Part shown: positions 5,638-39,423 of the stretch, one piece after another | How positions within the stretch are numbered: the stretch's first letter is position 1 | Layout of the letters: each line of letters opens with the position of its first letter | Assembly: GCA_003165595.1 (NCBI GenBank) | Contig: PLWQ01000039.1 | Location: forward strand, 15,892-79,891 | Source: Fibrobacterota bacterium | GTDB taxonomy: Bacteria; Fibrobacterota; Chitinivibrionia; Chitinivibrionales; FEN-1185 | Length of the DNA: 64,000 nucleotides | Direction of reading: 5' to 3' | The notes under the pieces: model-generated | The model's database searches: none | The model's input: only the letters and a program-made list of their open reading frames with translations | What the model was told of the DNA's origin: nothing | Position numbers and translations under genes: made by a program

Positions 5638-6063
5638 GATTATTCGCACCTCCGGTTTATGGGTCCCTGCACGCGCTTGTTTTGTCAACGATGGTTTAAT
5701 CCGCGGGATACGCAAGGGTCGGCTGCCATTGTCGCTGCGGATCACATATTGACAGCTGCAAGATCCCGTTTCACCCGCTATTGGTATAACATAATGGAAT
5801 GGACTTCTTTGCGACCTAAATTCATCCGGTTGGGCTCAGATTCCGTTACACGTTCATGTAACGGATAATGGATTTCGGGGCATCATTTTCCACCGAACGC
5901 GTCTACGTGTGTTTATGTTATTACCCAAGGGCCCTATGCGAACAGTCTCGCAAACGATGATTTTTTTCGCGAATGTGAACGTGCCTTCGCGCACACGGCT
6001 CGGCTCAAACCGGCACATCCGTCGACCAATCACCTGTTTTTGACCAATAGATTTGGAGGCTTT
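5638..6063. other. Divergent intergenic region with perfect 9-bp inverted repeat
   Basis: This 426-bp gap between the divergent BNR_4 and thaumatin-like genes must hold both promoters. It contains TCCGTTACA (5842-5850) and TGTAACGGA (5857-5865) around a 6-nt loop. The dyad has no following T-run, so a regulator binding site is more likely than a terminator. No gene seen. Confidence 0.45.
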
Positions 6064-7260
6064 ATGAGAATTCCGAAGCGCCTTTCCCATGAATGGTCTT
6101 TGGCGCTCACTGCACTGTCTGTGGTGTTTGTACTCTCGGGATCCGTTTTTGCCGCGGGCGGGACCCAGAAGCTGGTGATAGCAAACGACTGCCCCATCGC
6201 GCTGTGGATCCATTTTACCGAGACGCCGTATACCGCGCCCATCAACGGCGCGGCCGCTAAAAAAATGAATCCTATGGATACGCTGATATACGATTCCCTG
6301 CCGAACTTCGGGTCAGGAAGATGCTGGGCCTATTATCATGATCCTGGTACAAAAACCAGTCAAGGAGCGCCCTTAATTCCGGAAAACGGATTTGTGGAAA
6401 TGACCGTAAGCGGCGGAGCCAACGGTGTGCAGAACTACAACATTTCCTGTGTCGACTATGCCACGCTGCCGGTGAAGGTTGTGGGAGCTTCACCATCGTG
6501 CATCCCGACAATTATTCCCGTTACCTTTAAGGAGATGCAGTACCAGCTCAAACACGGGTGTCCCACACAAGTCAATTTTTTCGACAGCACCTTGGGAATA
6601 GGCATATGCCTTGGTTCTTACGACTACTGCGTACAGCCGGGATACGATACCGGAAACATATACTGCAACAAAATGTGGCTGGGCCACCACCACCACGGTA
6701 CAGAAGTATACGGCGGTTCGCTTAATCCCGGTTCACCAAACTCACTGTTTGATTCGATTGCCGCATGGCAAAGGGGAACGTTTTACCAGGACGCGGATTC
6801 TGCCGATTACTGGAAAAAGCCGGAACAAGACTCAACGGGCAAATGGGTAAATCCCTACAACCTCTATGCTAAATGGATACACAAAACCATGAACGCCCAG
6901 GTTTACGCATTTGCCAACGACGACCATCAGAACCAAAGCGGGTTTCAGGCGTGCACGAACTGCGGGCAGCTGAACATCACATGGTGTCCTTGCGAGAACG
7001 GGTGCGCGGATGACGTACTGGCGGCAACGAAAGCGGCGAATTTTACGCCTGTCGTGCGCTTGCAAGACGAGAAATTCATACGATATACACTCTTCGCGCC
7101 CAACGGGAAAACAATACGCACCGGCGTCGCCACTTCCATGGAAGAGGTGAGCCGGGCGATTTCAAACAAGTTATCGCTTTCACGGGGTGTGTATTTCATC
7201 GCCCTGTACGGCAAAGACGGAGCTTTGGCCGCAACCAAAAAAATGCTTGCAACGTGGTAG
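6064..7260 (+). CDS. Secreted thaumatin-like/GH64-superfamily protein, copy 1
   Basis: 398 residues from the ATG at 6064 (GGAGG six bases upstream). Signal peptide (to about residue 32), then a thaumatin-like start (LVIANDCPIALWIHF), the NYNISCVDYATLPVKV segment that matches the 'D-x-S-L-V-D-G-F-N-L-P' region of thaumatin-like proteins, and VYAFANDDHQNQSGFQACTN, recalling the YAYDD/YAFPYDD region of thaumatin and GH64 beta-1,3-glucanases. It is Cys-rich, as expected of a disulfide-bonded exported protein. The C-terminal 80 residues (DEKFIRYTLFAPNGKTIR ... GVYFIALYGKDG) look like a sorting-type sandwich. A GH64-like glucanase or a glucan-binding role is plausible but catalytic residues were not established. 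Tandem copy at 7640. Confidence 0.7.
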   Translation: MRIPKRLSHEWSLALTALSVVFVLSGSVFAAGGTQKLVIANDCPIALWIHFTETPYTAPINGAAAKKMNPMDTLIYDSLPNFGSGRCWAYYHDPGTKTSQGAPLIPENGFVEMTVSGGANGVQNYNISCVDYATLPVKVVGASPSCIPTIIPVTFKEMQYQLKHGCPTQVNFFDSTLGIGICLGSYDYCVQPGYDTGNIYCNKMWLGHHHHGTEVYGGSLNPGSPNSLFDSIAAWQRGTFYQDADSADYWKKPEQDSTGKWVNPYNLYAKWIHKTMNAQVYAFANDDHQNQSGFQACTNCGQLNITWCPCENGCADDVLAATKAANFTPVVRLQDEKFIRYTLFAPNGKTIRTGVATSMEEVSRAISNKLSLSRGVYFIALYGKDGALAATKKMLATW

Positions 7261-7639: not shown

Positions 7640-8812
7640 ATGAAATATTCAAGACAAAGCGCACGCCAATTGTCTTTCGCTTTAACCGCACTATCGGTGT
7701 TCGCCATCTCAGCGCCTGCAGGGAATCAGAAAGTGGTGGTAGCCAATGATTGCCCCGTCACGCTATGGATCCATTTTACCGGCAATCCTGCTCCCGATGG
7801 CGGAATAACCCACAAAATGGTTCCTAACGATACCCTCACTTTCCCTAACTGGCCGGATTTCGGCGCCGGGAGATGCTGGGCCTATTATCTCGATCCCGGC
7901 ACAAAGACCAATGGGAGTGCACCGATCATGCCGCAAAATGGGTTTGTGGAAATGACCGTAAGCGGCGGAGCCACCGGTGTGCAGAACTACAACATTTCCT
8001 GTGTCGACTACACCACGCTGCCGGTGAAGGTTGTGGGTGGTTCCGCTAGTTGTATTCCGACAATTATTCCTGTCACCTTTGCGGAGATGCAATACCAACT
8101 CAAACACGGGTGTCCCACACAGCTCAATTTTTTTGATAGCACCGTGGGATTAGGCATATGCCTTGGTTCTTACGACTACTGCGTTCAGCCTGGATTCGAT
8201 ACCGGAAACATTTACTGCAACAAGATGTGGCTGGGCCACCACCACCACGGTACCGAAGTATACGGCGGTTCGCTTAATCCCGGTTCACCAAACTCACTGT
8301 TTGATTCGATTGCTGCCTGGCAAAGGGGAACATTTTACCAGGACGCGGATTCCGCCGATTATTGGAAAAAGCCGGAACAAGACTCAACCGGAAAATGGGT
8401 AAATCCCTACAACCGTTATGCTAAATGGATACACAAAACCATGAACGCCCAGGTTTACGCTTTTGCCAACGACGACCATCAGAACCAGAGCGGTTTTCAG
8501 GCGTGCCCGAACTGCGGGGAGCTCGACATCACCTGGTGCCCATGCGAGCACGGGTGCGCTGATGACGTACTGGCGGCAACGAAAGCGGCGAATTTTACGC
8601 CCGTCATGCGCTTGCAAGACGAGAAATTCATACGATATACACTCTTCGCGCCCAACGGGAAAACAATACGCGCCGGCGTTGCCACTTCAATGGAAGAGGT
8701 GAGCCGGGCCATTTCAAACAAGCTTACTTTGGCACGAGGCGTATATTTTATCGCATTGTACGGAAAAGACGGAGCATTGGCTGCGAGTAAGAGGATGCTT
8801 GCGACGTGGTAG
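7640..8812 (+). CDS. Secreted thaumatin-like/GH64-superfamily protein, copy 2
   Basis: 390 residues; ATG with AAAGGATG upstream. It is nearly identical in its central and C-terminal parts to the protein at 6064-7260 and diverged mainly in the signal peptide and residues 35-80. The same landmarks are present: VVVANDCPVTLWIHF, NYNISCVDYTTLPVKV, GHHHHGTEVYGGSLNPGSPN and VYAFANDDHQNQSGFQACPN. The four-His run with the following GTEVYGG is a possible metal-binding loop. The duplication includes the 3' hairpin, so it arose as one DNA event of roughly 1.55 kb. Function as for copy 1: exported, disulfide-rich, possible beta-1,3-glucan binding or hydrolysis. Confidence 0.7.
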   Translation: MKYSRQSARQLSFALTALSVFAISAPAGNQKVVVANDCPVTLWIHFTGNPAPDGGITHKMVPNDTLTFPNWPDFGAGRCWAYYLDPGTKTNGSAPIMPQNGFVEMTVSGGATGVQNYNISCVDYTTLPVKVVGGSASCIPTIIPVTFAEMQYQLKHGCPTQLNFFDSTVGLGICLGSYDYCVQPGFDTGNIYCNKMWLGHHHHGTEVYGGSLNPGSPNSLFDSIAAWQRGTFYQDADSADYWKKPEQDSTGKWVNPYNRYAKWIHKTMNAQVYAFANDDHQNQSGFQACPNCGELDITWCPCEHGCADDVLAATKAANFTPVMRLQDEKFIRYTLFAPNGKTIRAGVATSMEEVSRAISNKLTLARGVYFIALYGKDGALAASKRMLATW

Positions 8813-9869: not shown

Positions 9870-10493
9870 CTAACAAGATTTTGTCTTGTTTCTTAATTCC
9901 ACCGCGGCGTCCCGAGGATGAATTGCCGAACATATTGCTGACGCAACTGCTATTCCATTTGCGCCGGCCTGCATGACAGCGGCTGCATTATCTTTGTTTA
10001 TGCCGCCTATGGCCACAGCCGGATGTTTGGTCACTGCCATTACCTGGCGAATTCCTTCAAGACCGAAAGGCTTAGCCGTATCGGTCTTGGTGGCTGTATC
10101 GAAAACGGGAGATATGCCGACATAATCCACATCCATCGCATTGGCCTCGCGCACCTGCTCCATATTTTCCACCGAAAGTCCGATGATTTTTTCTTTGCCA
10201 AACAGTCGACGGGCCATTGCGTAGGGTATGTCGCTTTGTCCGATATGGAGTCCGTCCGCGCCGGCGGCCAGGGCTACATCCAACCGGTCATTGATAATCA
10301 GAGGCACCTGGTGCGGGGCAAGTTTCTGTTTCAGCCTCAGGGCAAGTTCGATAAATTGACGTGTGCTGCAATCCTTCTCGCGCACCTGCACCGCCGTCAC
10401 GCCTCCTTTTACGGCTTCTTCGACAATCCATTCAATGTTCCGCCCCAACGAGGCCGGCCGGTCGGTGACCAGATATAACCTCAAATCAAACAT
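9870..10493 (-). CDS. thiE: Thiamine phosphate synthase
   Basis: 207 residues, the usual ThiE length. It joins hydroxymethylpyrimidine diphosphate to thiazole phosphate to give thiamine phosphate. Visible family features are QVREKD near residue 37, LIINDRLDVALAAGADGLHIGQ (loop binding pyrophosphate and metal), VDYVGISPVFDTATKTD and VAIGGINKDNA in the phosphate-binding end of a TIM barrel. The gene starts 3 nt after the thiM stop codon, so the two are co-translated as a salvage operon. No thiD or thiamine-pyrophosphate riboswitch was seen nearby. Confidence 0.97.
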   Translation of the reverse strand: MFDLRLYLVTDRPASLGRNIEWIVEEAVKGGVTAVQVREKDCSTRQFIELALRLKQKLAPHQVPLIINDRLDVALAAGADGLHIGQSDIPYAMARRLFGKEKIIGLSVENMEQVREANAMDVDYVGISPVFDTATKTDTAKPFGLEGIRQVMAVTKHPAVAIGGINKDNAAAVMQAGANGIAVASAICSAIHPRDAAVELRNKTKSC

Positions 10494-10496
10494 GTC

Positions 10497-11291
10497 TTAT
10501 CCATTTTGTGCCCGTTGCGCCAGGACTTCGGGCGTCAGGTTATACAATGCATCCAAAAAGTAAAGTTGCATCGTGCCGGGGCCTTCGGCTTTTTGAGCAG
10601 CCAGTTCGCCAGCAACACCCATAACCGTCATGGCATGTGTAGCAGCCTCCACGAGATCGGAATTTACAGCGGCAAAAGCGCCGACAATGGCGGAGGCAGT
10701 GCAACCCATGCCGGTTACTTTTGACATGAGCGCCGAACCATTTCTTACCGAGCGAACGATTTTTCCGTCGGTTATAAAATCTTCTTTTCCGCTTATCACA
10801 ACAATTGCCCCTGTTTCTCGCGCCAAACGCGTACCAGCGTCCAAAGCCGAGTTGGACGAAATCGTGCTGTCAACTCCTTTCGTGGAGGCGGTTCCTTTCG
10901 CCAACGACATTATTTCGGAGGCGTTTCCCCGGATAATGGATGGTTTACAAACACTTATTATGGAGGCAGCGACTCGATTCCGATAAGGAGTTGCTCCCGC
11001 GCCGACAGGATCGAAAACAACGGGAATTCCCTTTTCGCGAGCCGCATTTCCCGCAAGCAGCATCGACTCAACCCATTTTTCGCTCAGCGTTCCCATATTG
11101 ATTACAAGTGACAATGCGACGGCAACCATATCCTCGACTTCTTCAATAGCATGCGCCATCACCGGGGAGGCACCAATTGCCAATAGTGCATTGGCCGTAC
11201 TGTTCATCACCACATAATTGGTGATACTGTGTACCAGCGGCGCTTTTTCGCGCACCAGTTTCAGGTCGGCGATCAATTTTGTTTTGTCCAT
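10497..11291 (-). CDS. thiM: Hydroxyethylthiazole kinase
   Basis: 264 residues from the ATG at 11291; a TTG at 11327 would add 12 residues with no family counterpart. ThiM phosphorylates 4-methyl-5-(2-hydroxyethyl)thiazole with ATP, feeding ThiE. Family signatures are VHSITNYVVMNSTANALLA, GASPVMAH, VFDPVGAGATPYR, IRGNASEI, GVDSTISS and SKVTGMGCTASAIVGAF, which carries the active-site Cys, then EGPGTMQLYFLDALY near the end. It is followed directly by thiE. The upstream DNA lacks a recognisable TPP riboswitch, so how the pair is regulated is not visible. Confidence 0.97.
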   Translation of the reverse strand: MDKTKLIADLKLVREKAPLVHSITNYVVMNSTANALLAIGASPVMAHAIEEVEDMVAVALSLVINMGTLSEKWVESMLLAGNAAREKGIPVVFDPVGAGATPYRNRVAASIISVCKPSIIRGNASEIMSLAKGTASTKGVDSTISSNSALDAGTRLARETGAIVVISGKEDFITDGKIVRSVRNGSALMSKVTGMGCTASAIVGAFAAVNSDLVEAATHAMTVMGVAGELAAQKAEGPGTMQLYFLDALYNLTPEVLAQRAQNG

Positions 11292-11395
11292 ATTCGCTTC
11301 TATTGCTAAGGTATGGCTAGTTTGCAAGTGATAAGCCCGTCAACTTCCGAACTGCAAACGAGGTTATTACTCCGGCAACTAAATATACACAATAC

Positions 11396-11456
11396 CGCTC
11401 GTCCTGAGCTTGTCGAAGGATGAGCGTTCATGGTTCGACACGCTCACCACGAACGG
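11396..11456. repeat. Dispersed palindromic repeat upstream of thiM
   Basis: CGCTCGTCC/GGATGAGCG form a stem (11396-11426) followed by TGGTTCGACACGCTCACCAC. A related TGGTTCGACGGGCTCACCAC occurs at 56872-56891. This style of repeat (CTGAGCTTGTCGAAGG) is widespread in bacterial intergenic DNA. It lies in the 408-bp gap between thiM and the plus-strand lipoprotein gene; nothing else clear is seen there. Confidence 0.65.
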
Positions 11457-11699
11457 ATATTTGTTCTTACACATATTTAATCGCCGGATGCAATTAGTTC
11501 TCACGGAAGAGAAGATTCCGCAGATTTATAGATTTTGACAATGGCTGGCGGGAATACCTATATTTTTGCAAAGCTGTTCGTACTGCCGCGTGCAGAAGCG
11601 CGAAAAGAGGCAAGAATTGAGTGTCTGTAAGGAAATTATCTTCCCAGGTTCACCTGCACTCATAAAGGAAACCGTCTAGCTTTTGGAAAGGAATCCCTG

Positions 11700-12461
11700 A
11701 TGATCGACGCAGCATCACTTCGGACTTTTGGGGGATCGGCCCGGGTATTCTTTTTCGCGGCCGTAGTGCTCTCGGGGCTTCTGGCAAGCTGCAGCAGCCC
11801 CAAGAGCGGGGCCGCGGGCACCGGCTCAACGGGCAATTTGATTGTCAATGGAAACGCCGAAGCGGCGGTAGGTTCCGACGACGGAACGCCCGTTTCGACC
11901 CCGAACTGGGTATCGGCCGGCGAGGCCACCGCAGCCCAATATGCCGTGAATGGATGGCCTGCGCCAACAGACTCTGGTCCGGCGGATCGCGGATTGAACC
12001 TTTTTTCCGGCGGACCGGTCGACTCGGCATCATCGCTCACCCAAACCGTCAACGTGAGCCACTACGCCGGCTCGATCGACAAGAATCATGCCACCTACAA
12101 GTTGTCCGGCTGGCTGGGCGGCTATGCTGACCAGGGAGACAACGCGACGGTGACCGCTACTTTTCAGGACGCGCTGGGCAACCCCCTTGGCACCGGGAGC
12201 ATCGGTCCGGTCACGGCGAGCGACCGTTCGAACCAAACGGGGCTTTTGCCGCGGTCATCGGATGGCACTGTGCCGTCGGGAACGCGAAAAGTACTCGTTG
12301 TTATCTCCATGGTCCGCACCGACGGCACTGCGAACGACGGTTACGCCGACAATCTGTCATTTATATTCAGCGGCATAGACGCAAATTTGCTCGGCGAAGT
12401 CGCTCTCATCAAGACCGGTTGGCAAACTCCGCTGATGCTTGGCGCACCAACTGCTCCGTAA
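11700..12461 (+). CDS. Lipoprotein with carbohydrate-binding-like beta-sandwich
   Basis: 253 residues; ATG preceded by GGAAAGG. N-terminal hydrophobic stretch VFFFAAVVLSGLLASC ends in a lipobox (LLAS-C), then a Ser/Gly linker. The remaining domain begins NLIVNGNAEAA and ends GYADNLSFIF, the start and end motifs of galactose-binding-like 'choice-of-anchor' sandwich domains. It should therefore be a cell-surface or periplasmic lipoprotein that binds a ligand, perhaps a glycan. It lies 39 nt before A1 on the same strand and could form an operon with it. No enzymatic residues are recognisable. Confidence 0.7.
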   Translation: MIDAASLRTFGGSARVFFFAAVVLSGLLASCSSPKSGAAGTGSTGNLIVNGNAEAAVGSDDGTPVSTPNWVSAGEATAAQYAVNGWPAPTDSGPADRGLNLFSGGPVDSASSLTQTVNVSHYAGSIDKNHATYKLSGWLGGYADQGDNATVTATFQDALGNPLGTGSIGPVTASDRSNQTGLLPRSSDGTVPSGTRKVLVVISMVRTDGTANDGYADNLSFIFSGIDANLLGEVALIKTGWQTPLMLGAPTAP

Positions 12462-12500: not shown

Positions 12501-14210
12501 ATGCACAACATGAAATTTCCAGAACAATTATTGCTGATGGCAGGCCTTGTTTGTTGCGCCTTCGGCCAGACTGTCATCCAATCGAACATTTCCGGCACTG
12601 TAACCGACGGCCACGGGAATCCGCGCTCCGGAGCAATTGTAGTGTTGCTGAACGCGGGACTCATCGACTCAACTGATGCCGACGGAGATTTCACGCTCGC
12701 AGGCGATGTCGGCGTGAAACAGCGGCTTTCCGCCGCACTTGCGAAAAACGAAGTGGGTGTGCGCGGCGGTAAGCTCTACTTTACGATTCATTATGCAAAT
12801 ACGCCGGTTGCGGTTGAAATATTCGATTACCGGGGCAGAATGCTTTTCAATATGCCGCCCGTGGATTTTCTGCCCGGCAGCCATTGCATATCAATCGTCT
12901 CTCCACAATCTCCGGCGATCGCTGTAAGCGCAATCGCCCGGGTCACCATCGGCCGGAATGAAAAGATCCTTCGTTTCCCCGGCTTTGGTTCCGCGTTCGC
13001 ACAATCCGCATCCGTTTCCGGGCAGCCTGCATATCTTGCAAAGACCCAGGCCGTGGTTGACACGCTGCTGGTGTCCGACTACAATTCCCTGACTGTGAGA
13101 GTTCCCATCACCGATTACACGACGTCCTCGCTGCAGATAGCTGTTCCAAACGACAACCGCACCGATAAGCTGATTCTCAACGACGTCATAAAAGCAGGAA
13201 ATGGCGACGGGCTGGTAATGCGATCCACCGACGAACTCTACCGGGCCCCGGGCGGGGATTCGGGCACGACCATGTCGTTTATGGGATTACGATCAATCGA
13301 ACTGCCCGATTTCGTGAATGTCGATTACGTGCAATTTTCAATGCCCAACAGCGCGTATTCCGACCGGATCGTCTATAGCTGGGAGTTTCTTCCGATCAAC
13401 TGGTCGATCGACTCGTTTACCATCGTCGTCACTGCTAACGGCCTGGACACCATCGATCCAACCCAGGTGCTGCATCTGCTGTACGGCGCGGACACGGGCA
13501 ACAAAACCGATACGTTTACCATGAACCTGTATCCCGGTGATCTCCACGCGCTTCTTGGCAGATGCAAAACCGCGGTTCCCGGTTTCGATACAATGCCGGT
13601 GCACAATTTCTTCGCGGCAAATGGAATCAATCAATACGTCGATTTGCTTCGCTTGGCATACACCCAGTCGGCTCAGACTGCGTATTACCGATACCTGTGC
13701 GTGGTTTTTTCCACCGCGCAGGCCTGTATTGAGTTGACAAGGGTCCTTCCTTCACATTTGGCAAAGACCAGAGTCCTGCCTTCGCATTTGGCAAAACGAA
13801 CCGGGGAATTCGGCCCGACCACCATTGCGGAGGACCTGCTGAAGGCAATGCTGGCAAGCGTGATCAAAGATATTATTCGCGACCTGCTTGCAAAACCGCC
13901 CTCAGGAATCGGCGCATTGCTCTGTGAAGGCGCGGACGCGAGCTGGGATGAATGCAAATATCAATATGTACAGTTTCCGGAAACCCCCACGGGCTCCGTG
14001 CCGTCCGATGCAATAGACAAATGCATGAACATCTGTGCATGGGTGACGCTCGGATGTTTTACGAATATTTGCATGCCCATGAGCCTTGAAGAAGCCGAGG
14101 CGGGGGACTTGAAACAGCAGCTCGCTGCTTTTGATCTGAAGTATTTCGGGGGAGGAACCTTTGGCCCCGGGGGCGTTTTAACAAAGAAGATCCAGAAACG
14201 ACTGCGGTAA
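12501..14210 (+). CDS. 'Family A' secreted protein A1 (carboxypeptidase-regulatory N-terminus, Cys-rich C-terminus)
   Basis: 569 residues; AAGGGGG precedes the ATG. Signal peptide to about residue 22, then a carboxypeptidase-regulatory-like sandwich (NISGTVTDGHGNPRSGA) into which a FlgD-like module is inserted (VAVEIFDYRGRMLFNMPP ... LPGSHCISI), returning at AVVDTLLVSDYNSL. A middle domain contains STDELYRAPGGDSGTTMSF, and a Cys-rich C-terminal region contains LLCEGADASWDECKY, DKCMNICAW and FTNICMPMS. It ends GGGTFGPGGVLTKK-QKRLR. A close homologue of equal length is A2 (45008-46720), and both are near a family B gene. Residues 413-432 carry a doubled TRVLPSHLAK. I know of no described function. 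Confidence 0.75.
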   Translation: MHNMKFPEQLLLMAGLVCCAFGQTVIQSNISGTVTDGHGNPRSGAIVVLLNAGLIDSTDADGDFTLAGDVGVKQRLSAALAKNEVGVRGGKLYFTIHYANTPVAVEIFDYRGRMLFNMPPVDFLPGSHCISIVSPQSPAIAVSAIARVTIGRNEKILRFPGFGSAFAQSASVSGQPAYLAKTQAVVDTLLVSDYNSLTVRVPITDYTTSSLQIAVPNDNRTDKLILNDVIKAGNGDGLVMRSTDELYRAPGGDSGTTMSFMGLRSIELPDFVNVDYVQFSMPNSAYSDRIVYSWEFLPINWSIDSFTIVVTANGLDTIDPTQVLHLLYGADTGNKTDTFTMNLYPGDLHALLGRCKTAVPGFDTMPVHNFFAANGINQYVDLLRLAYTQSAQTAYYRYLCVVFSTAQACIELTRVLPSHLAKTRVLPSHLAKRTGEFGPTTIAEDLLKAMLASVIKDIIRDLLAKPPSGIGALLCEGADASWDECKYQYVQFPETPTGSVPSDAIDKCMNICAWVTLGCFTNICMPMSLEEAEAGDLKQQLAAFDLKYFGGGTFGPGGVLTKKIQKRLR

Positions 14211-14252
14211 GTATTGTCTTTCAGCTGCACGGGCTCAGCGATCCAAACGCGT

Positions 14253-14831
14253 ATGCAGTTCGAAATCGTGTCCGCAACTCTTTTTCTGCAAATAGCCTTG
14301 CTGGTAGCAGTCGTCTGCGCCACGGTGTTGATCGTGGCCTTTTCCGTTTTCAACGGCATCTCTCCCATGCCTTCCTCCCGAAAAGCATTGGCAGCGGTCC
14401 TGGAATTAATAAAGGAAGCCGACACCGGCGGCAGCATTGTTGACCTCGGCTCGGGTTGGGGAACATTGTGTTTCGCTGTTGCGGCCGCATTTCCGGACAG
14501 GGAGGTGTGCGGGTATGAGAATTCCCCTGTTCCCTACATTTATTGTCTTTTGATCAACGCGCTGGTGAGGCGGAGAAATCTGCGATTTGTCCGTCGAAAC
14601 TTCTATGCAGTGCCGCTTCACGAGGCCGGCCTGGTGCTCTGCTATTTGTATTCCGGGGCCATGGTAAGGCTTAAATCGAAATTTGAGAACGAACTGCGTG
14701 CCGGCACGGTGGTCGTGAGCAACACCTTTGCCGTGCCGCTCTGGAAACCGCGAGGGGTCGTTGAGTTGAGGGATATGTACCGCTCGAAAACCTATTTGTA
14801 TGTTACCGGCAATGCGGCCCGTAACCTATGA
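14253..14831 (+). CDS. Membrane-anchored SAM-dependent methyltransferase (FAM173/ATPSCKMT-like)
   Basis: 192 residues from the ATG at 14253; a TTG at 14214 is possible and no start has a strong ribosome site. One N-terminal transmembrane helix (FLQIALLVAVVCATVLIVAF) is followed by a class I SAM fold: VDLGSGWGTLCFAVA (motif I), VCGYENSPVPYIYC (acidic end of strand 2) and LVLCYLYSGAMVRLKSKFEN, then GTVVVSNTFAVPLWKP. This layout, with a helix, a DLGSG motif and a late 'FxxPxW', resembles the FAM173 lysine-methyltransferase family. It lies 42 nt after A1 on the same strand, suggesting co-expression. The substrate is unknown. Confidence 0.8.
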   Translation: MQFEIVSATLFLQIALLVAVVCATVLIVAFSVFNGISPMPSSRKALAAVLELIKEADTGGSIVDLGSGWGTLCFAVAAAFPDREVCGYENSPVPYIYCLLINALVRRRNLRFVRRNFYAVPLHEAGLVLCYLYSGAMVRLKSKFENELRAGTVVVSNTFAVPLWKPRGVVELRDMYRSKTYLYVTGNAARNL

Positions 14832-15031
14832 AAAATCTTCGCTTGAAGATTCTGTTCATACGCTGTGAGTCACTGCTGACAAACGGTATGTTGACTAACA
14901 CGTAATTAGAGGCACCGGGCAAATTCTGTAGTTGAGTTTTGCGTTAGTTGGACTGGAGGCCGTGGCCGAGCCCGCAAGGAGAACGACCCGAGCGCAGCGA
15001 GGGAAACGCCCAATGCATTATGTTGTTATTG

Positions 15032-16288
15032 TCAATTGATCTTCGAGAGATTGTACAGGGTATACTTGACGATCCTCATGAGCTGCGGAAAGGACGCGAT
15101 GTCCTGGTTGTGGTAATTGGTCCACAAGAATCGCCCCCTGCCGAGATAATTCTCGATAATAACCCCGCTCTGCGGGCTGCGGTTCTTTATGGCCCCCATC
15201 ACGCGCGCATCCGGAGGCAGATCGGAGAACGTTTCGTATCCTGTCAACATCCTGCCGCCGTTGTCGGTGGACTGCCACGCAATCCGGGTGTATCCGACGT
15301 TGGCGGCCATTGCGGTGTCGAGGATGATCAGCGTATCGGCAGGCTGCTGGTCGCCGTCGTCGATATTCTGGTAGTACGGGGCGAATATCGACTCCAGGGC
15401 GAAATATCCCCAATGACCTCCGTACACGACCCCGCCCTGCTCAATGTAATGACTCATGGCCACATAAAGTGAGGTACCGCCAAGGTCCGCGGGGATTTCC
15501 GGAGCGATGCAATCGAGGAACACCATGCCGTACTGCACCAGGATGTTGTATGCTTGCACGGTGTCAGAATCGGCGCGCGCGGCAAAGGTGTCGACCGACA
15601 TGGTGTCGAATTTTGTAAACCCGATTGCCGGGAGCAGCACCTCAATTGATTCCGCAGGGGCCTTGAGGACCAGTAGCTTGACGGATGAGTTCTGCGAAAG
15701 GCGAAGCACGGGTGCCGTGACCGCGGTGTCGCCGGAAGAAATCCGGACCGAACCCTGCGCGCCGAAAATGCCCAGACGCGCGGAAACGGTTCTCGTTCCG
15801 GCAAAAGCGTAGACCACGGCTTTCCCGTAGAAATTCGAAACAGCCGTGTCGGACGCCCCGTCGATCCAGATGCGCACGCCGCCGAAAGGCTGTCCCTGCG
15901 GATCGTCGACCGTCACGCCCACCGGTACCGTTTGCGCCGGGCCGAGAATTACCGGCGAAAGGACCGTAGCGCTGTCGACGGCGGGAACCGTTTCATCGCG
16001 GCTGACAGCGAGCATCCCGGATTGCGCTTCCAGAACCTGGCTGCCGGACGGCGAGGTGAGGGTCGCCCTGCCGAGGCTGTCGGTGATCACCGTGTCGCTT
16101 TGCCCGTCAAACCAGACCTTGACGCCTTTGCTCGGCTGACCCGCGGAATCGACCACGGTGATCTTTACCGTATATTCCTGCACCTTCGGCGCTGCCGGAT
16201 TGGGATTTTTTTTGCCGCATCCGACGATCACGCAGACTGACGCGACAAACGCCACAAGAACCATTGTCAAAGATCGTTGCGTGCTCAC
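15032..16288 (-). CDS. 'Family B' lipoprotein B1 (two Ig-like repeats plus GATase/ThuA-like domain)
   Basis: 418 residues from a GTG at 16288 with AAGGA six bases upstream. Lipobox CVIVGC (Cys after about 22 residues). Two carboxypeptidase-regulatory-like repeats follow, with the shared pattern G-V-K/R-V/I-W-x-D-G-x-S-D-T. The C-terminal half (about 220-418) looks like a glutamine-amidotransferase/ThuA-like fold: YGMVFLDC, YIEQGGVVYGGHWGYFALES, IAWQSTDNGG and GRGRFLWTNYHNQD. No clear catalytic Cys-His-Glu triad was found, so it may be a binding domain. Homologue B2 is at 46814-48064. B1 converges on A1 and the methyltransferase gene. Confidence 0.7.
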   Translation of the reverse strand: MSTQRSLTMVLVAFVASVCVIVGCGKKNPNPAAPKVQEYTVKITVVDSAGQPSKGVKVWFDGQSDTVITDSLGRATLTSPSGSQVLEAQSGMLAVSRDETVPAVDSATVLSPVILGPAQTVPVGVTVDDPQGQPFGGVRIWIDGASDTAVSNFYGKAVVYAFAGTRTVSARLGIFGAQGSVRISSGDTAVTAPVLRLSQNSSVKLLVLKAPAESIEVLLPAIGFTKFDTMSVDTFAARADSDTVQAYNILVQYGMVFLDCIAPEIPADLGGTSLYVAMSHYIEQGGVVYGGHWGYFALESIFAPYYQNIDDGDQQPADTLIILDTAMAANVGYTRIAWQSTDNGGRMLTGYETFSDLPPDARVMGAIKNRSPQSGVIIENYLGRGRFLWTNYHNQDIASFPQLMRIVKYTLYNLSKIN

Positions 16289-16416
16289 ACTTGTTCCTTC
16301 CGCAAAAGTGTTTGGTACTTCACTTGTTTCCACAAGATCGGCTAGTCTTGTAATGGCTAAAGAATAGCCATCAAAGATACTGCTTTCTTGAAAGGATAAG
16401 AACGATTCGTGTTCGC

Positions 16417-18408: not shown

Positions 18409-21204
18409 ATGTTTAAAGGATTTGCAGCAGCAGTGCTTCTAGTAGTTGCTTTGGCTCTCACTGCCACCAATGCAGCGACTGTTGACCAGGGAAACAGGCT
18501 AAAGATCAACTTCGGGGCAACGCCGTGGAAGTTTATCAGGGGCGATGCAATCAATGGCCAGGGATTAACAACAAACGATGCGGCGTGGACGACCGTGGGG
18601 CTGCCGCATACATGGAACGAAAACGACATCTTCGTCAACATGGCTGCCGGCGGGCCGGCTCCGAACATGGGCGGACTCTCCTGGTACCGGAAACACTTCA
18701 CCCTCGACCAGAGCTACTCCACCAGGAAGATTTTCGTTGAGTTCGAGGCGTCGCATATCGGGATGCAGGTGTACATTAATGATAGTTTGATTAAGGGCAA
18801 CAGCGGGGTCAATCCCAACGCAACGCATGTGGTGGGATTCCTGCCCGTCATTGTCGACCTTACTCCCTATGTCGTTTTCGGGGGCGCAGACAATGTGCTG
18901 GCGGTGCGTATCGGAGACGGCGGGTCGTTCTTTTCTTCACCAACGTTTTCATACGATTTCCGTTTCGGCCAGGGCTGCTATGGATTGTGGCGTCCCGTGT
19001 GGATGCACATCACCGACAAGCTGTATATCCCCGCCAACGTTTACTCTGTTGTCAATAACTGGGGAACCTGCGTCGGCGCAACAGCGGCCAGCGATGCCTC
19101 TGCCACGGTGCGCGTCATGACCCACGTGCAAAATGAGTACAGCACGGCGCAGAATGCGACACTTGTTACGGAGATCGTGGACGCATCAAACGCCGTGGTA
19201 TCCACTCAGACGAGCACGCAGTCCATAGACCCAGGCAAGAGCTATGTGTTCGACCAGAACCACACCGTAGTCAATCCGCACCTGTGGTATCCGGCAGCCA
19301 GCACCTATGGCACACCGTACATGTACAAGGTATATCACATTGTAAAGATCGCCGGCACCACTGTCGACGTGTTCAAGAGCCCGCTGGGCATAAGGACCGT
19401 AACATGGGACGCCAACGGAATACCGGTTATAAACGGTCATGCGCATCAGATGTGGGGCGTAGGTTCGCGCTACGATTATCCCGCGCTTGCCACCGCCGTT
19501 CCCGAAGAACAGCAGTGGCGTGACGCCAAGATTTGCGCCGAATATGGCGGCCGGCTCTGGCGTCCCGGCCATTCAACCGGAAGCCCCGAGCTTACGGCAG
19601 CCTGCGATGCATACGGCATCATGCTCATGCAGCCCAGCGGTGATCTCGAAGGGAATTTCGCCACGGCACAAATCACCGCCGGACCCTCGCCGACTTACAA
19701 GAAAACACTCAAGACCGAAGTCCACCGCGACATGATAGTACGCGACCGGAACAACCCTTCGATCCTTTCGTGGGAGGTCAGCAACGGGCCCATCGACAAG
19801 ACTTTTGAACAATATCTGCGCGACAGCATTCAAAAGGTCTGGGACCCCATAAGCTATCACCCGATGTCGGACCGGGGATACGGTGATGCGGCCACGAACA
19901 ACATTGCCGAAATATGGTCGTGCTCCGGCCTGGGATGCGGGATCGGATTCAAAAACGGCAATGCAACAACTCCGATATGGGGCGCGGAGGAGTGGGACTA
20001 TACCCATCGCACCTATCGCTGGGATTACGACAATGAACTCAGTTTCGCAAGCGTCTTTGTCAATAACTGGTACGGATACCAGCAGGCGAAATGCTTCGGA
20101 CTGGCGCACTGGTATTTTTCCGAGACGCCGGGTGAAACCGGACTCGGCAGAGGGTTCCAGGAAGCCATGTTCGATCAAAACCGCATTCCAAAAATGCTTG
20201 CAAAGATCTACCAGGCAAACTGGATGCCCTTCGCCGTCAAGCCGGTTGTGAGCCTTGCAAACCACTGGAACCGCTCCGGTGCGGTTCAAGTCAACGCCTT
20301 CAGCAATTGTCCCAAAGTGCGCTTGTCAATCAACGGCACGCAGCAGGGCACCCCGGTTGTTCCCGCTGCAGGCGGCGGCAGCCTCATGCCCTCGCAATGC
20401 CAATGGAACGTCACGTTTGCAGCCGGAACCCTGCTTGCCGAAGGGCTTGACGCAAACAACAACGTGGTTTGTTCCGATAAGAAGGTTACCGCGGGAAATC
20501 CCGACCACATTCTCCTCACCGTCGAACCGCCGCTGGTAAAGCCCGACGGCAGCCAATTCCAGATTACCGCCAACGGCTCCGATGCAGCGTTCATTCTTGC
20601 AACGGTAGTCGATGCGCAGGGCAACTGGTGCCCGGAGGACAGCCACAACATCACCTTTGCGGTTTCCGGGCCGGGAACCTACCGGGGCGGCGCGGACGGC
20701 GACGTCAAGCCGGGCGCCATAACGGTCCACGCGCCGGGCGACCCCGAACTTTCCGCACAGGGCGGCATGTGCAAAGTCGCCGTGGTTTCCACCTTTGCAA
20801 CCGGCACAGTAACGGTAACCGCGACGTCGGCAGGACTTGGCCAGGGCACAGCCTCCTACAGCGTTGTTGCGCCCGTTATTGAATTGCCGATTTTTGACAC
20901 TCCGGTAGGCACGCATCTCGGACTACCGGCGCGCAGCGCACTTCCGGATTGCCGGATCGAGGCTGTCGGTCAAACCATACGGTATTTCATAAGTCAACCT
21001 ACATATTTGTCGGTTGAGATTCTCAGCGCCAATGGAAGAATAGTGAAGAAAATCCCCCGCACCCTGCGCGGGGAAGGATGGCACATGGTGTCGCTTGCGG
21101 ATCCGTCGCAAAGCGGCGCTACGGGTAATGGTGTTTTTGTCGTACGCCTTACTTCCGATGGCCGAAACCTTGCCGCGAGACGCGTGATACTGATGAGAAA
21201 TTAG
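18409..21204 (+). CDS. Secreted GH2-family protein with atypical acid/base site
   Basis: 931 residues; GGGGGAG upstream. Signal peptide to residue 22, GH2 sugar-binding sandwich (LPHTWNEND, GGLSWYRKHF, VEFEASHIGMQVYINDSL), immunoglobulin-like domain, then the barrel (about 325-640), a Big/Ig-like domain and a C-terminal FlgD-like module (LSVEILSANGRIVKKIP ... GVFVVRLTSDG). In GH2 the acid/base Glu normally follows Asn in 'N-P-S-I-x-x-W-x-x-x-N-E'. Here the sequence is NNPSILSWEVSNGP, with Gly460 in place of Glu. A possible nucleophile region is IWGAEEW (Glu527/528). It may be a variant family using Glu456, or an inactive binding protein. A beta-galactosidase-like substrate is only a guess. 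Confidence 0.85.
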   Translation: MFKGFAAAVLLVVALALTATNAATVDQGNRLKINFGATPWKFIRGDAINGQGLTTNDAAWTTVGLPHTWNENDIFVNMAAGGPAPNMGGLSWYRKHFTLDQSYSTRKIFVEFEASHIGMQVYINDSLIKGNSGVNPNATHVVGFLPVIVDLTPYVVFGGADNVLAVRIGDGGSFFSSPTFSYDFRFGQGCYGLWRPVWMHITDKLYIPANVYSVVNNWGTCVGATAASDASATVRVMTHVQNEYSTAQNATLVTEIVDASNAVVSTQTSTQSIDPGKSYVFDQNHTVVNPHLWYPAASTYGTPYMYKVYHIVKIAGTTVDVFKSPLGIRTVTWDANGIPVINGHAHQMWGVGSRYDYPALATAVPEEQQWRDAKICAEYGGRLWRPGHSTGSPELTAACDAYGIMLMQPSGDLEGNFATAQITAGPSPTYKKTLKTEVHRDMIVRDRNNPSILSWEVSNGPIDKTFEQYLRDSIQKVWDPISYHPMSDRGYGDAATNNIAEIWSCSGLGCGIGFKNGNATTPIWGAEEWDYTHRTYRWDYDNELSFASVFVNNWYGYQQAKCFGLAHWYFSETPGETGLGRGFQEAMFDQNRIPKMLAKIYQANWMPFAVKPVVSLANHWNRSGAVQVNAFSNCPKVRLSINGTQQGTPVVPAAGGGSLMPSQCQWNVTFAAGTLLAEGLDANNNVVCSDKKVTAGNPDHILLTVEPPLVKPDGSQFQITANGSDAAFILATVVDAQGNWCPEDSHNITFAVSGPGTYRGGADGDVKPGAITVHAPGDPELSAQGGMCKVAVVSTFATGTVTVTATSAGLGQGTASYSVVAPVIELPIFDTPVGTHLGLPARSALPDCRIEAVGQTIRYFISQPTYLSVEILSANGRIVKKIPRTLRGEGWHMVSLADPSQSGATGNGVFVVRLTSDGRNLAARRVILMRN

Positions 21205-21605: not shown

Positions 21606-23948
21606 TTATTTATATATCCCTTTCGGCAACTGCTGGCCCGCGGAATTCAGGCCGTAGTCGTACGGGTACAGCGGATCGTAAGTCGCGTCACCCACGTTGA
21701 TCGGTTCCTGCGCCGTGTTCCTCGGCCACGACGTCGAAAGCTTGCCGCTGAACTCATAGTTGCCGTACAGCACTTCGGCAATGCCGCCTCCCTCGGTGCC
21801 GGGCAGCCACGCGGCAACGATCGCATCGCATTTGTCGGCAATGGTGCTTATGTCCATGGGACGACCGGTTATCATGACGCATATCACCTTTTTGCCCGAA
21901 TTCTTGGCCGTGGTAACAAGGCTCGCTTCCGGAATGGTCAAATCGGTCCTGTCACCTATCATTTCCGCGTACGGCTGTTCTCCAATGCAGACAACTGCCA
22001 CGTCGCCGGTGATGCCGTTGCCGTCTGCGCTGTAGGAAATGTTTGCCACGCCGCCGATGCTTTCAAATCCCTGGCGGATGGTGGTTCCGGGCATTGAGTT
22101 CCCTGCCGCGCCCTGCCAGCCCAGAGTCCAGCCGCCGCATTGCAGCCCTACGTCCTGCGCGTGCGGACCCACAAGGGTGACCTTTGCGGTTTTGGAAATT
22201 GGAAGAACGCCTGCGGATGTTTTAAGCAGGACAAGCGACTTGCGCACCGCCTCGCGGGCAATATCGCGGTGTGCCTGACTTCCGACGGTTGCCGTTACCG
22301 AAAGGTCCGTGGCCAGCGGCGCGGTAAAAAGTCCCATCCGGTACTTGATGCGGAGCAGGCGTTTCACGGCATCATCGACCCGTGCGCCGCTGCCGCTGGT
22401 GTACAGGCCGTTAAACAGGGTCTGCAAATCGCCGATTCCGTCGCTGCTCGCGCCCCTCATCGGGATATCGAGACCTGCTATGATGCAATTGGCCGCGCTT
22501 GACGTTCCGGTAATGTGGCCATCCCAGTCGCCATTGACAAACCCGTCGAATCCCTGGCTCGTCTTGAGCCAGTCGGTAAGCAGCACCTTGTTCTCGTGCA
22601 TGCGCACGCCGTTCCAGCTGGAAAACGATGCCATCACCGACGCGGTCCCGGCCTGCACCGCCGCGGTGTAGCCGGGCAGATGGATCGACCGGAGGATTGA
22701 ATCTACTCCCGTGGTGTTGCCGCGGTCGACGCCGCCGTCGGTGCCGCCGTCACCGGCAAAGTGCTTGGTGCATGCCGCAACCACGAGCGGATTTGACAAG
22801 TCGGACAACTGGAACCCGAGCACAGCCGCGCGGGCCATCACGGGCGTCAGGTCGGGCGATTCGGAGAAACCTTCGTACACCCGCCCCCATTTGTCGTTCC
22901 TCGGCACCGCGATGCACGGGCCGAAGGCCAGGTTGACGCCGCCGCCGCGCGCCTCGATTCCCGCGACCCTGAAGCATTTCTGGACAATCACCGGATCAAA
23001 GGTGCACCCCAGTCCGATGTTGTGCGGATTGACTGTTGCACCGTTGCACTTGCCGAACCCGTGGACGATGTCGAAGCCGATGAGCAGAGGAATTTTCTTG
23101 GGGGTGGTCTGGCTTGCGTTCTGGTAGTTGGTGCAGAAGCTCGCCCATTCCGAGGGGTGTCCCGCGCCGCCGCCCGGGCCGTCGGATCCGCCGCCGAAAA
23201 TCGTACCCAGAAGCGCGCTCGTCACGAAACTGGAGGCCGGGCAGTCCACCTGAACGAGCTGACCCACTTTCTCAGCCTGGCTGAGCGTGCCCAGCAGCGT
23301 GTTCACCTCGCCTTCTATGTCAATGGGGGTCAGGATGACGTTGCCCACATTCGCCGAATAGGAATCGATCGCGATCTTGACAGGTAAGTATCCTGTTTTG
23401 CCGACGCGGACCGTGTCGACAGCTGCCAGTTTCTTGGCCACAGCGGTAGAAGCTGCGCCGTATGACGCGGGGCTCACGGCCGCGATACCGTTCCTCCCGC
23501 CTGTATTCATCAGTTTTTGAAAGGTGGTCTTGTCGCCCACGGTCGTCTTGAGCACATACACGGTGCGGGCAAACGTTGAAGGCAGCTTGATGGAATACAT
23601 TCCTTTGTCAAGATACCCTTCAAACAGGGTGCCTGTTTTCCTTCCGTCAAGTCCGTACAGCTCCGCGCGGACAAATCCCGCCGAAAAAACCGGGAATGCC
23701 GGCTCATGTGAGACCGGTCCGGCCACGGCCGTGTTACCCGTGCCGAAATTGCCGTTCGCATCCGAAAAGTCCCACGACAGGCGTTTGGCAATGCTTGTGT
23801 AGGTAGCCGTCGCATTTGCGATGGGCTGGCCGGTTGCGGTCACTGCTTTTCCGGTGACCGTGAAATCGCCGCTCTGGGCGAAGGCAACGGTGAATGCCGC
23901 TGCAATCGCAATCGAAACAGTACAGAACTTGATACCCTTCCTTTTCAT
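21606..23948 (-). CDS. Secreted GH3 beta-glucosidase with nested N-terminal FlgD-like module
   Basis: 780 residues; AAAGGAGA precedes the ATG. Signal peptide to about residue 25, then a carboxypeptidase-regulatory-like domain (FTVTGKAVTATGQPIANATA) split by a FlgD-like module (VRAELYGLDGRKTGTLFEGY ... VYVLKTTVG) that closes at AVDTVRVGKTGYLPV. The GH3 domain starts near residue 212 (LSQAEKVGQLVQVD): KHFAGDGGTDGG, and nucleophile region FVNGDWDGH (Asp474). The last 200 residues (LVGPHAQDVGLQCGGWT ... LPGTEGGGIAEVLYG) are the GH3 C-terminal sandwich. It belongs to the ExoP/BglX-like branch acting on beta-glucans. No Fn3 or C-terminal sorting module is present. Confidence 0.93.
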   Translation of the reverse strand: MKRKGIKFCTVSIAIAAAFTVAFAQSGDFTVTGKAVTATGQPIANATATYTSIAKRLSWDFSDANGNFGTGNTAVAGPVSHEPAFPVFSAGFVRAELYGLDGRKTGTLFEGYLDKGMYSIKLPSTFARTVYVLKTTVGDKTTFQKLMNTGGRNGIAAVSPASYGAASTAVAKKLAAVDTVRVGKTGYLPVKIAIDSYSANVGNVILTPIDIEGEVNTLLGTLSQAEKVGQLVQVDCPASSFVTSALLGTIFGGGSDGPGGGAGHPSEWASFCTNYQNASQTTPKKIPLLIGFDIVHGFGKCNGATVNPHNIGLGCTFDPVIVQKCFRVAGIEARGGGVNLAFGPCIAVPRNDKWGRVYEGFSESPDLTPVMARAAVLGFQLSDLSNPLVVAACTKHFAGDGGTDGGVDRGNTTGVDSILRSIHLPGYTAAVQAGTASVMASFSSWNGVRMHENKVLLTDWLKTSQGFDGFVNGDWDGHITGTSSAANCIIAGLDIPMRGASSDGIGDLQTLFNGLYTSGSGARVDDAVKRLLRIKYRMGLFTAPLATDLSVTATVGSQAHRDIAREAVRKSLVLLKTSAGVLPISKTAKVTLVGPHAQDVGLQCGGWTLGWQGAAGNSMPGTTIRQGFESIGGVANISYSADGNGITGDVAVVCIGEQPYAEMIGDRTDLTIPEASLVTTAKNSGKKVICVMITGRPMDISTIADKCDAIVAAWLPGTEGGGIAEVLYGNYEFSGKLSTSWPRNTAQEPINVGDATYDPLYPYDYGLNSAGQQLPKGIYK

Positions 23949-24188: not shown

Positions 24189-27100
24189 CTACTGGACCGT
24201 CACGGAAAAAGCCTTATTCGCAGCCGTCTTGTTTCCGGCCTTGTCAACGGCAACTACGTTCCAGGAATGTACTCCCGCCGGAACGGACGCGGCGAGGTAG
24301 GTTGCAAGAGGCATTCCATAGACGCTGAACTCGTACAGTGAATTGCCCCACGTTGTGCCGCGTTTGATGCAAAAGAGACGAACATATCTGCCGATGGCGT
24401 TGAGGCCCTTGATTGACTCTTTTCCGCCGGCGCTCGTAGTTGTCTGGTACACGGCCTTTCCCGTCCAGCTCAATGTGTCATTTGCAACGTCTATCTCATA
24501 CGACGAGGCATAGGCCGCCTCCCACGAGATCGTTGCGGAATCTATCCGTGACGGTGTGCCGAGGTCTATGCGAAGCCACTGGCTGTCTGCCGCCGAACTT
24601 TCCCACCGGGTCGTGGCATTTCCGTCCACCGCGTTTGTCGCCACATTTCCCTGCGCAACCGACGATCCTGTGGCGGTCTTTCCGAGCGCAATGTTCCCGT
24701 ACGATGTTGCGACGGTATCGCAAACCACGTTGGCCACTTTGGCGCCGTCAAGGGAAAACTCGTAATGGTCCATGCCGGTTCCGTTGTCCGTTGCGGTCTG
24801 CCAGAAAAACGAGACTGCGGGGCCGGAAACCGTACCGTTGTCTGCCGGCGCCGAAAGTGAAAATGCAGACGGCGGGATAGTGTCGGAATACGCGAAGGTC
24901 CGCGTTGCCGACGACGTGCCCTTGTTTACCCAGTTGATTGCCGTAACATACCACGAGAAAGAACCCGGCGTGATAGCGGTGAAGGCATAGAACGTGTCCG
25001 TTGTGGACGCGACCTTGTTGCCGTTTACATACACATCATATTCCTGGATGCCGGATTCCGGGTCCGAGCTTTGGTTCCACACGAGAATGGGCATCGTGCT
25101 CTGGACGGTAGAACCGTTTGCCGGCGTTACGAGGTTGAAGGCCAGCGGCGGGGTGGCATCGTTAAACCCCTGGTCGGCGGCGCCGATGAGGACGCCGGTT
25201 GAATCAACCGTGCCGGTCCAGTTTATCTTGATCCGACGGTCGAACGTGCCGCTTCCGATGCGGGAAAACTGCGCGGTTGCCCCGTTGACCGTGACGCTCA
25301 CGGTGGTGGCAGGCAGGAATCTGTCCGAAATGTAAATTGACGAGACTTTTTGCGGTTTGTCGAAACGAACCGTGATGGTCTGGTTCTGGTAGGTGCTCCC
25401 GTCTTCCTTGTAGGAAATCGTGCCGTAATTTCCCGGCATGCAGAACAGCGCATTTTTGAGCTCGTGATTCATCGAGGCGCCCCACTTGTCGGTTGTGGAG
25501 GGGAGCTTGGGTTCGACATACAATGCGTTTGTATACGCATTATACCAGAAACCGATAAGGGAATAATAGTTTCGCCATACCACCGGCATGCTCACGTAGA
25601 AACTGTGGCCGCTCCAGTCGGTGGAAGCAAAATTGTCGCCAAGCCCGTTGTAAACCAGGTAAATTCCGCCGTCGAACACTCTGTTGCGGTTGCCGAAATA
25701 CCTGTTGTAAAAGTCCCTTTGTATGGCCCGCCATTCGGCAACATGGTTGGTGTTCAGGAAAGCGGCGCCGAGGTGGCCCATCACGTACGGAACCCATCCT
25801 TCCGCCTCACCGTCGGAGCCCGAAGCCGCCATGCCAAGGTCGAGCGGGTGCCAGAAGTTGTTGATCAGATAGGAGAGCGTGGTGTTGATCTCGGCATCGG
25901 AGAACATCTGGTCTTCATGAAAGTACAGAGACATCGCCAATCCGGCAAACGGCGTTTCTGCGTTTGAGGCGATGGCGGTTGACGGATTGGCCAGATACCG
26001 CCTCTTAAAGGAGGCGATTCCGGTGGTATATGCCGTTGTAAAGCTGTCCTGCATCCCGGCATCGCCGTAAATTCCGGCCATTTCCGCAATGATCTTGAAC
26101 GCCGTAAGGGCAAGTCCGGAATTGTAAAGATCATGGTCCTGCGGGCCCTTGTCGTAGGTTGCCCCGGTACCCTGGAAAGTAAAGGGATACGTTGTATTCC
26201 CGTTGTCAATGGTTGACAATCTGTACAGCCGTTGCGCAGTTCGCTTGAAATACGGCCAGTAGGTGTCCATCCGCGTCTTGTCGCCGGTTGCGATAAACGA
26301 TTCGTAAACGCCGAAGAGAAATCCGCAATCGAGGTCCGCCCAATTGGGGCCGCCCCAGCCATGATAGCCCGGTGCGTCCCATACGCATGTCTTATGATCG
26401 GTTACTTGTCCGGCGCCGGGAATGAAATCGTGCGAGATCTGGCCGTCGTTATCGCCGCCGACCATTTCGGTACGCGCCCAGAATTCCATTTCGGAGGCGC
26501 TAGGCCAGGAGAACATGGGGCCGTTGATACGCCATATCTCGGAACCGAACGCATGCCACCCCTGGTCCATCTGGCCGAACCATGTATAGATGCCTTCCCA
26601 TTCGCTGTAGCGGCCGTCCTTGGTATAGATGCTGCTGTTTGTCCACGTGGTCTGGTCCAGCGTGGTGTTCACGATCCAATCGGGAACATTGGAAGAGCGG
26701 AAGCGCTCCACGAACTGTACGGCGCGCGATTCCAGGTTGTCGAAACTGTCAAGACACGTCTTGGCAAAGAATTGCGCATTGGTCCCGGAATTTGCATAAT
26801 AGTAGCCGGGCGGGTCGTCGGACTCGTACCACGAAAGGACAAATTCGATGTCCTTTTTCTCGCCCGGGCCAAGCGTGACTTTCGCCGCAACCATATTAAC
26901 CGTACCGGACGGAGTATTGTTGAGCGTGCCGGTCGTGAGAAAACCGGCATCGTTTCCCACGCTCACGACCGCCGACGGATCGCCGCTTTTTACAAGGAGC
27001 GCCTTCGACGGGGCCCCACCCTCTGCGGCAAAACCTTGTCCGGAAACGACCGTCGGCGTAGAACCGGTGGAAATTTGGAATGCGCAGGCCGCATCCACCG

Positions 27101-28424: not shown

Positions 28425-28523
28425 TGCATTGCTCCTTTTATCAAAACTTATGCTGATTCGTGCGTGATTAATTATACGCTTAAACACCAATTCGGTCAAT
28501 TGAGAAATAGGTTTTTCAAACCT

Positions 28524-38969: not shown

Positions 38970-39080
38970 CTACTGTCATTGAGGAGTGATGAAAATTGGG
39001 ATAAGGCAGTTGTTAATAGGCGGCGGATGGTATTCCATCCGTCGCACCAGTAAAGTGTTTCCCGAATGGCTATACTATTT

Positions 39081-39370: not shown

Positions 39371-39423
39371 GTCATCCCCGACCTGATCGGGATCCATTTG
39401 TTCTTCATAGGGAAAATGGATTG
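39371..39423. repeat. Dispersed repeat, second copy of 3880-3933
   Basis: GTCATCCCCGACCTGATCGG, then GATCCATTTG and AAAATGGATTGG, matches the copy near 3880. Non-coding, intergenic. Confidence 0.65.

Follow-up and report, generated by a model that had tools for sequence, protein, structure and literature searches.

The 64,000 nucleotides of contig PLWQ01000039.1 of a Fibrobacterota bacterium (lineage FEN-1185) analysed here, below called the window, carry two families of predicted secreted proteins, A and B, each in two copies, and the N-terminal part of A turned out to be a module common to many other proteins of the genome. Identity over the full length is 65% between A1 and A2 (564 alignment columns) and 44% between B1 and B2 (412 alignment columns), which is far beyond chance and bears out the first-pass annotation of this DNA, where A and B had been described as recurring families. 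A genome-wide search of the 5.39 Mb, 42-contig assembly (genome G000) retrieved exactly two full-length copies of each. The two loci lie 31 kb apart on one contig, with A and B within ~1 kb of one another at each. At locus 1, A1 and B1 are convergent, and the open reading frame (ORF) between them resembles methyltransferases and has a hydrophobic N-terminal stretch compatible with a membrane anchor, as annotated. At locus 2, B2 and A2 are codirectional, with 93 bases between them. The A2 ORF spans positions 45008-46807 (minus strand), and its most likely true start is the ATG at 46720, which is preceded by a strong Shine-Dalgarno sequence, AGGAGGTG. Since B2 and A2 are codirectional and closely spaced and A2 has a strong Shine-Dalgarno sequence, the two could form one operon. 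The genes of the two loci are as follows:

11700-12461, plus strand: lipoprotein of unknown fold directly upstream of A1; 65% identical to the orthologue upstream of A in the sister species G031; no Pfam match
12501-14210, plus strand: A1; signal peptide, nested module and A-domain
14214-14831, plus strand: methyltransferase ORF with a hydrophobic N-terminus; NCBIfam NF041081 at E 4e-14, under its cut-off
15032-16333, minus strand (start at 16288 or 16333): B1 lipoprotein, lipobox ..VGC/GKK; 44% identical to B2 and 75% to the G031 orthologue
45008-46720, minus strand: A2; module and A-domain as in A1, 93 bases downstream of B2
46814-48064, minus strand: B2 lipoprotein, lipobox ..FLFAGC/CGKK; PF13620

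Over residues ~10-216, A matches ~20 other proteins encoded in the genome at 26-39% identity. Thus, part of A is not specific to A: its first ~220 residues are a common module, which had been overlooked in the first-pass annotation. The N-terminus of A is of the Sec type, ending ..FG/QT with Q at position +1, and [AGSC]Q stands at the start of the module in 65 of 86 module proteins, placing Gln at the mature N-terminus. The module proper (residues 24-216 of A) can be described as a CarboxypepD_reg domain split by an insert of ~115 residues that resembles the sorting tail of the type IX secretion system (T9SS). The parts of A1, all on the plus strand, are:

12501-12566: signal peptide (residues 1-22), read from the sequence; the mature N-terminus is probably Gln23
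12570-12704: first CarboxypepD_reg half (residues 24-68); PF13620 matches only at profile positions 2-44 of 82
12705-13049: T9SS-tail-like insert (residues 69-183, core 86-160), assigned by hhalign of the family insert, A1 alone not scoring
13050-13148: second CarboxypepD_reg half (residues 184-216), from the family alignment
13188-14207: A-domain (residues 230-569) with six conserved Cys; no known family; relatives in genomes G031, G018, G037 and G017

In all aligned module proteins the order is signal peptide, first CarboxypepD_reg half, insert, second half. Pfam CarboxypepD_reg matches in the carriers end at profile position ~40-47 of 82, so that natural PF13620 matches cover the first half only (with A1 and A2 under the curated cut-off), and the part of the domain that is missing, V-D-T-L-x-V....GY....I..Y.G....L, is found after the insert. 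Both halves of the module thus match CarboxypepD_reg (PF13620/PF13715) in order; the difference is the interruption by ~115 residues after profile position ~45. The insert is 110-120 amino acids long in 16 of 16 module proteins despite an identity of only ~20-30%. When it was cut out in silico, the joined halves scored 27-42 bits with PF13620, with eight of ten proteins over the cut-off of 32.3, while controls with reversed second halves scored 25-34 bits, with one of ten over it. The true joined halves outscored the reversed control in nine of the ten proteins. Because A1 is the exception (28.2 bits for the true sequence, 30.0 for the control), the nesting in A itself is predicted from its alignment to the module family.

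We compared the insert with T9SS sorting tails using a tail hidden Markov model (HMM) trained on C-terminal tails of the window genome only and 86 distinct module proteins from ~24 genomes, 84 of which have a complete C-terminus; two further matches to the module model were set aside manually (the L113 fragment, a plain C-terminal tail, and the L017 fragment, a truncated ORF). The tail HMM matched inside the module in 72 of the 86 proteins, and none of the 84 with a complete C-terminus had a T9SS tail there at any E value up to 10. Neighbouring proteins that lack the module do carry C-terminal tails by the same HMM. Pfam Por_Secre_tail matches the insert of one module protein, L007, directly (E 8e-4, sub-threshold in Pfam) and that of L008 weakly, and several PF18962 matches in the genome fall within module proteins. 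A profile of 20 inserts aligned with four genuine T9SS tails of the window at an hhalign probability of 95.8% (E 7e-9). The inserts have the motif order of the tails, V.I.L.D..GR .. L..G.Y .. Y.lrV..G, and nearly the same net charge per residue (0.048 vs 0.047). The insert therefore resembles the T9SS type A C-terminal sorting domain (PF18962/TIGR04183) in its profile, its length class, the order of its motifs and its basic character. This sorting domain directs translocation and is often cleaved by PorU, and T9SS signals are described as C-terminal. The insert differs in its position: it is close to the N-terminus and enclosed by another domain, hundreds of cargo residues come after it, and the proteins have no C-terminal tail. 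The window organism has a homologue of the T9SS translocon protein SprA as well as many genuine C-terminal tails; SprA_N is found in its genome and in 158 of the 167 Fibrobacterota genomes that were searched with profiles.

The module is present in 131 of these 167 genomes, usually at full length, and reaches at least 19 copies per genome in the larger ones. We regard it, as an architecture predicted from sequence, as real and phylum-wide. The cargo behind it in the window genome comprises domains of glycoside hydrolase (GH) families GH3, GH30, GH64 and GH116, FGE-sulfatase, FISUMP, DUF2271-like and unknown domains. Carriers in the window other than A1 and A2 include:

21606-23948, minus strand: GH3 protein whose N-terminus matches the module model (positions 3-188); internal tail match weak, E 0.018
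27783-28352, minus strand: nested module at the N-terminus of a GH116-type protein (24189-28499), from the module family search

GH64-type module proteins cluster in the genome (C13:148-152 kb). The module can also sit in the middle of a protein: in L012:511-2715 an esterase domain precedes it and FISUMP comes after it. FISUMP, the Fibrobacter succinogenes major domain (PF09603/TIGR02145), is likewise a high-copy secreted module of Fibrobacterota; it is unrelated to the module and is cargo on this carrier.

The C-terminal A-domain gave no credible Pfam, NCBIfam or PDB sequence match; a match of A to Bet v 1 in a sequence search against solved structures (E 0.08) was rejected as not credible. 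Two features are invariant, the relatives in G018 and G037 included: a set of six Cys close to the C-terminus (L.C.G...C.Y....C...C......CF.NIC.P) and, upstream of it, a P..W..D region. A was thus rightly annotated as secreted and Cys-rich, with the six Cys kept down to the most distant relatives, and they likely form three disulfides. The N-terminal partner of the A-domain is the module in the window genus, a lipocalin-like lipoprotein N-terminus (by inspection) in G018 and G017, and another lipoprotein N-terminus in G037. The A-domain ends lipoproteins L160 (G037) and L036/L037 (G018), whose N-termini are unrelated; the G018 copy lies beside housekeeping-type genes. Because it stands behind differing N-termini in different genomes, the A-domain is, judged by these sequences, a mobile domain placed at the C-termini of envelope proteins.

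B had been annotated as a lipoprotein with an amidotransferase/ThuA-like fold. The first part stands, as both copies have a lipobox Cys by inspection (B1 ..VCVIVGC/GKK, B2 ..FLFAGC/CGKK), while the fold was not demonstrated. The domains of B1, both on the minus strand, are:

15698-16180: two CarboxypepD_reg/transthyretin-like immunoglobulin-like (Ig) domains; two PF13620 stretches, Foldseek
15035-15694: alpha/beta C-terminal domain of ~220 residues, possibly ThuA/GATase-like; low-confidence model and non-significant ThuA alignment

Foldseek retrieved carboxypeptidase D and SusC NTE domains, a result that applies only to the Ig domains. The AlphaFold model of B1, built from 2-4 sequences, is partial, with a mean predicted local distance difference test (pLDDT) score of 52 and ~30-75 over the C-terminal domain, which has a beta-alpha pattern. 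The C-terminal domain had no Pfam match at E<=10 and no credible PDB sequence match, and a PF06283 search of the window genome did not recover B. An hhalign alignment of B to ThuA (PF06283) is collinear (..GF.., Y..V.., a YI..GG...GGH.. elbow with His, ..GRxxxT..H), and the GG.VYGGH elbow of B can be compared with GGG.VG.H of ThuA, but the alignment is not significant (P 0.05). The ThuA suggestion thus has some appeal, but membership in the ThuA family is not supported by the profile searches, and a class I glutamine-amidotransferase-like fold is no more than possible. If the fold is ThuA-like, amidotransferase chemistry is not expected, because the position of the usual nucleophile Cys holds His.

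The phylum set allows one to see how far A and B travel together. B was found in two of the 167 genomes, the window genome with two copies and its congener G031 with one. The A-domain occurs in both and also in G018, G037 and G017 (there cut by a contig end), where the profile search did not find B, the G017 case being apparent. G031, a sister species, is the sole other species with both families. Its single A (C60:9604-11301 of 36,218) and single B (C39:20207-21640 of 27,226) are both well inside separate contigs; with these contigs end to end, the two genes would still be separated by at least ~15 kb. By DNA comparison, C60 is the place orthologous to locus 1: the lipoprotein gene 11700-12461, A1 and a GH2 gene (18409-21204) keep their order and orientation. 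Counterparts of B1 and of the methyltransferase are absent beside A on C60, and the place of A2 and B2 is absent from G031. Since C60 retains the lipoprotein, A and GH2 genes without B1, the conserved neighbour of A is the upstream lipoprotein, not B. The methyltransferase does not adjoin A in the sister species and was ruled out as part of an A/B system. A scan of a genome collection with A returned only the G018 record (Fibrobacter sp. metagenome-assembled genome AS22ysBPME_152), and a scan of viral contigs with A gave no matches. The linkage expected of a conserved two-gene system is thus not retained across genomes. The proximity that had been called conserved holds at both loci of the window genome and is lost in G031; co-occurrence holds for both species of the genus, and elsewhere the A-domain is found without B, which is largely the outcome that the annotation itself had named as speaking for chance pairing or one segmental duplication.

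The double linkage of two secreted families, twice side by side, had been taken to argue for joint function. One can suppose that A and B work together as partners, such as a surface protein A with a lipoprotein anchor or processing factor B, and that the double linkage reflects this partnership. Both copies of each family do lie within ~1 kb of the other in a 5.4 Mb genome, B2 and A2 have the operon-like spacing described above, both families are found in both species of the genus, and the unequal divergence of A and B speaks against one simple duplication. We nevertheless consider partnership rather improbable: A and B are unlinked in G031, where A retains other neighbours, the A-domain occurs without B in G018 and G037, the genes at locus 1 are in opposite orientation with an operon boundary, and no motif common to A and B genes was found upstream of them (the comparison gave just one 10-mer). 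A single segmental duplication (A1-B1 to A2-B2 or the reverse) and later rearrangement, in which gene conversion or unequal rates gave A a younger appearance than B, would account for there being only two copies of each family, 31 kb apart on one contig. One simple A-B block duplication is expected to give similar distance ratios for A and B. The ratio of paralogue to orthologue distance (Kimura distances over gap-free columns, bootstrap intervals) is 1.40 for A (1.20-1.65) and 3.07 for B (2.48-3.79), and the intervals do not overlap. Because the two duplications differ so clearly in apparent age, the simple form was rejected as unlikely from the sequence divergence. Gene order and orientation also differ between the loci, the neighbouring genes are not duplicated, and the G+C content at third codon positions is somewhat lower in A2 and B2 (0.57 and 0.51) than in A1 and B1 (0.62 and 0.74), so that even the form with rearrangement appears unlikely. 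The difference in ratios can be accounted for in any of three ways: gene conversion in A, a faster rate in B2, or acquisition on separate occasions. The outgroup-rooted A tree is poorly resolved (67% support, outgroup branch ~2). The two linkages may thus be independent, as annotated, but say little on function without linkage elsewhere. On present evidence the A/B pair is real, but it is not a conserved functional pair, and joint function is weakly supported; A and B may cooperate, and their proximity is no evidence for cooperation beyond the window genome.

The explanation that best fits the data as a whole, and to which we give an even chance, is that A1 and A2 are modular envelope proteins on a phylum-wide nested T9SS-like chassis, while B1 and B2 are envelope lipoproteins. 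A would consist of a signal peptide, the module (an Ig domain of the CarboxypepD_reg type interrupted by a T9SS-sorting-tail-like beta-sandwich) and a lineage-specific six-Cys domain of ~340 residues, with the module serving across the phylum as a chassis for glycosidases and other domains. Because the carriers have no C-terminal T9SS tail, the module may replace it and take over its job, that is, translocon recognition and/or surface retention. In B1 and B2, two Ig domains would hold the alpha/beta domain at the envelope, and A and B would probably share a polysaccharide-contact surface as the target of their action or sensing, with no obligate complex. The data show the homologies, the copy numbers, the nesting at the level of sequence, the lack of C-terminal tails, a SprA homologue in the genome and the loss of A-B linkage in G031; export by T9SS, the disulfides, a surface location and a role in polysaccharide use are inferred.

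A bolder form of this reading is that Fibrobacterota use the N-terminal nested sorting domain instead of a C-terminal tail, so that large cargo is exported and then displayed, its C-terminus free and the signal not released in the PorU manner. We hold this to be possible but doubtful. At least as likely, though somewhat short of an even chance, is that the insert is a mere structural spacer descended from a sorting tail and that module proteins, A included, are periplasmic or otherwise bound. There is no tail at the C-terminus, where known T9SS cargo has one; some carriers are GH3 or GH30 enzymes, which could act on oligomers in the periplasm; and several inserts are divergent and low-scoring. 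A spacer would not be expected to retain the length, motif order and basic charge of a tail, to occur exactly once per module throughout, or to be kept with the module across the phylum. Several further points weigh against the favoured explanation. A1 was negative with Por_Secre_tail, with the tail HMM and in the joined-halves test, and belongs to the family by alignment; since its AlphaFold model (2-4 sequences, mean pLDDT 37) is unusable, the nesting is judged from sequence. In Porphyromonas gingivalis, translocation strictly requires the C-terminus and loop Lb3b4 of the C-terminal domain (CTD), which nevertheless tolerates short C-terminal extensions such as tags (PMC11285876), and the papers found hold no precedent for an N-terminal CTD before hundreds of residues. 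For F. succinogenes, a published proposal equates the T9SS tails with BTD/Fpm-1, a domain known for a long time (PMC6851124). The nearest published case is the GH19 chitinase CHISP_3496 of Chitinispirillum alkaliphilum, of the same phylum, with a signal peptide, a chitin-binding domain, an internal Por sorting domain and a C-terminal GH19 domain; by its published description, with which we compared, CarboxypepD_reg nesting is unreported and the internal position uncommented (PMC4814513). The nested module is undescribed in the openly accessible literature that was searched, and its novelty is provisional, subscription papers and preprints being outside the search.

If the nested signal works, the C-terminal-tail export rule for cellulose- and chitin-degrading Fibrobacterota misses a whole class of surface enzymes, as many as about 20 or more in a genome and many of them glycosidases, and the rule that T9SS signals are C-terminal would break. 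If the insert is a spacer, the module enzymes would be periplasmic, which changes models of polymer breakdown at the surface. The module architecture allows clean recognition of carriers, in which current Pfam models see half a CarboxypepD_reg domain. By itself the A/B pair is of local interest, and it is less important than the module that A contains.

The window as a whole is an island of variable content that encodes secreted polysaccharide enzymes (two GH3, GH2, GH5, GH116, BNR_4 proteins, FGE-sulfatase), several of which have ordinary C-terminal T9SS tails; about five genes have DNA-level counterparts in G031 (two stretches of the window compared). Four short intergenic stretches (~11364-11460, 14965-15014, ~39080-39164 and 39365-39427) match many places in the sister genome at 75-97%; from these matches they are identified as dispersed repeats resembling repetitive extragenic palindromic elements, one of which immediately adjoins B1 at its 3' end. 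A thiE/thiM-like pair (9870-11327) adjoins the A1 gene cluster and has no DNA-level counterpart in the sister species. Positions 6040-7260 and 7640-8812 encode neighbouring secreted proteins with similar starts, the first with a weak resemblance to thaumatin (PF00314). Two DUF4423 (PF14394) proteins (35671-36516 and 55899-56780) are each directly followed by a same-strand CarboxypepD_reg protein (34322-35674 and 53629-55902), a repeated arrangement of a regulator plus an Ig protein.

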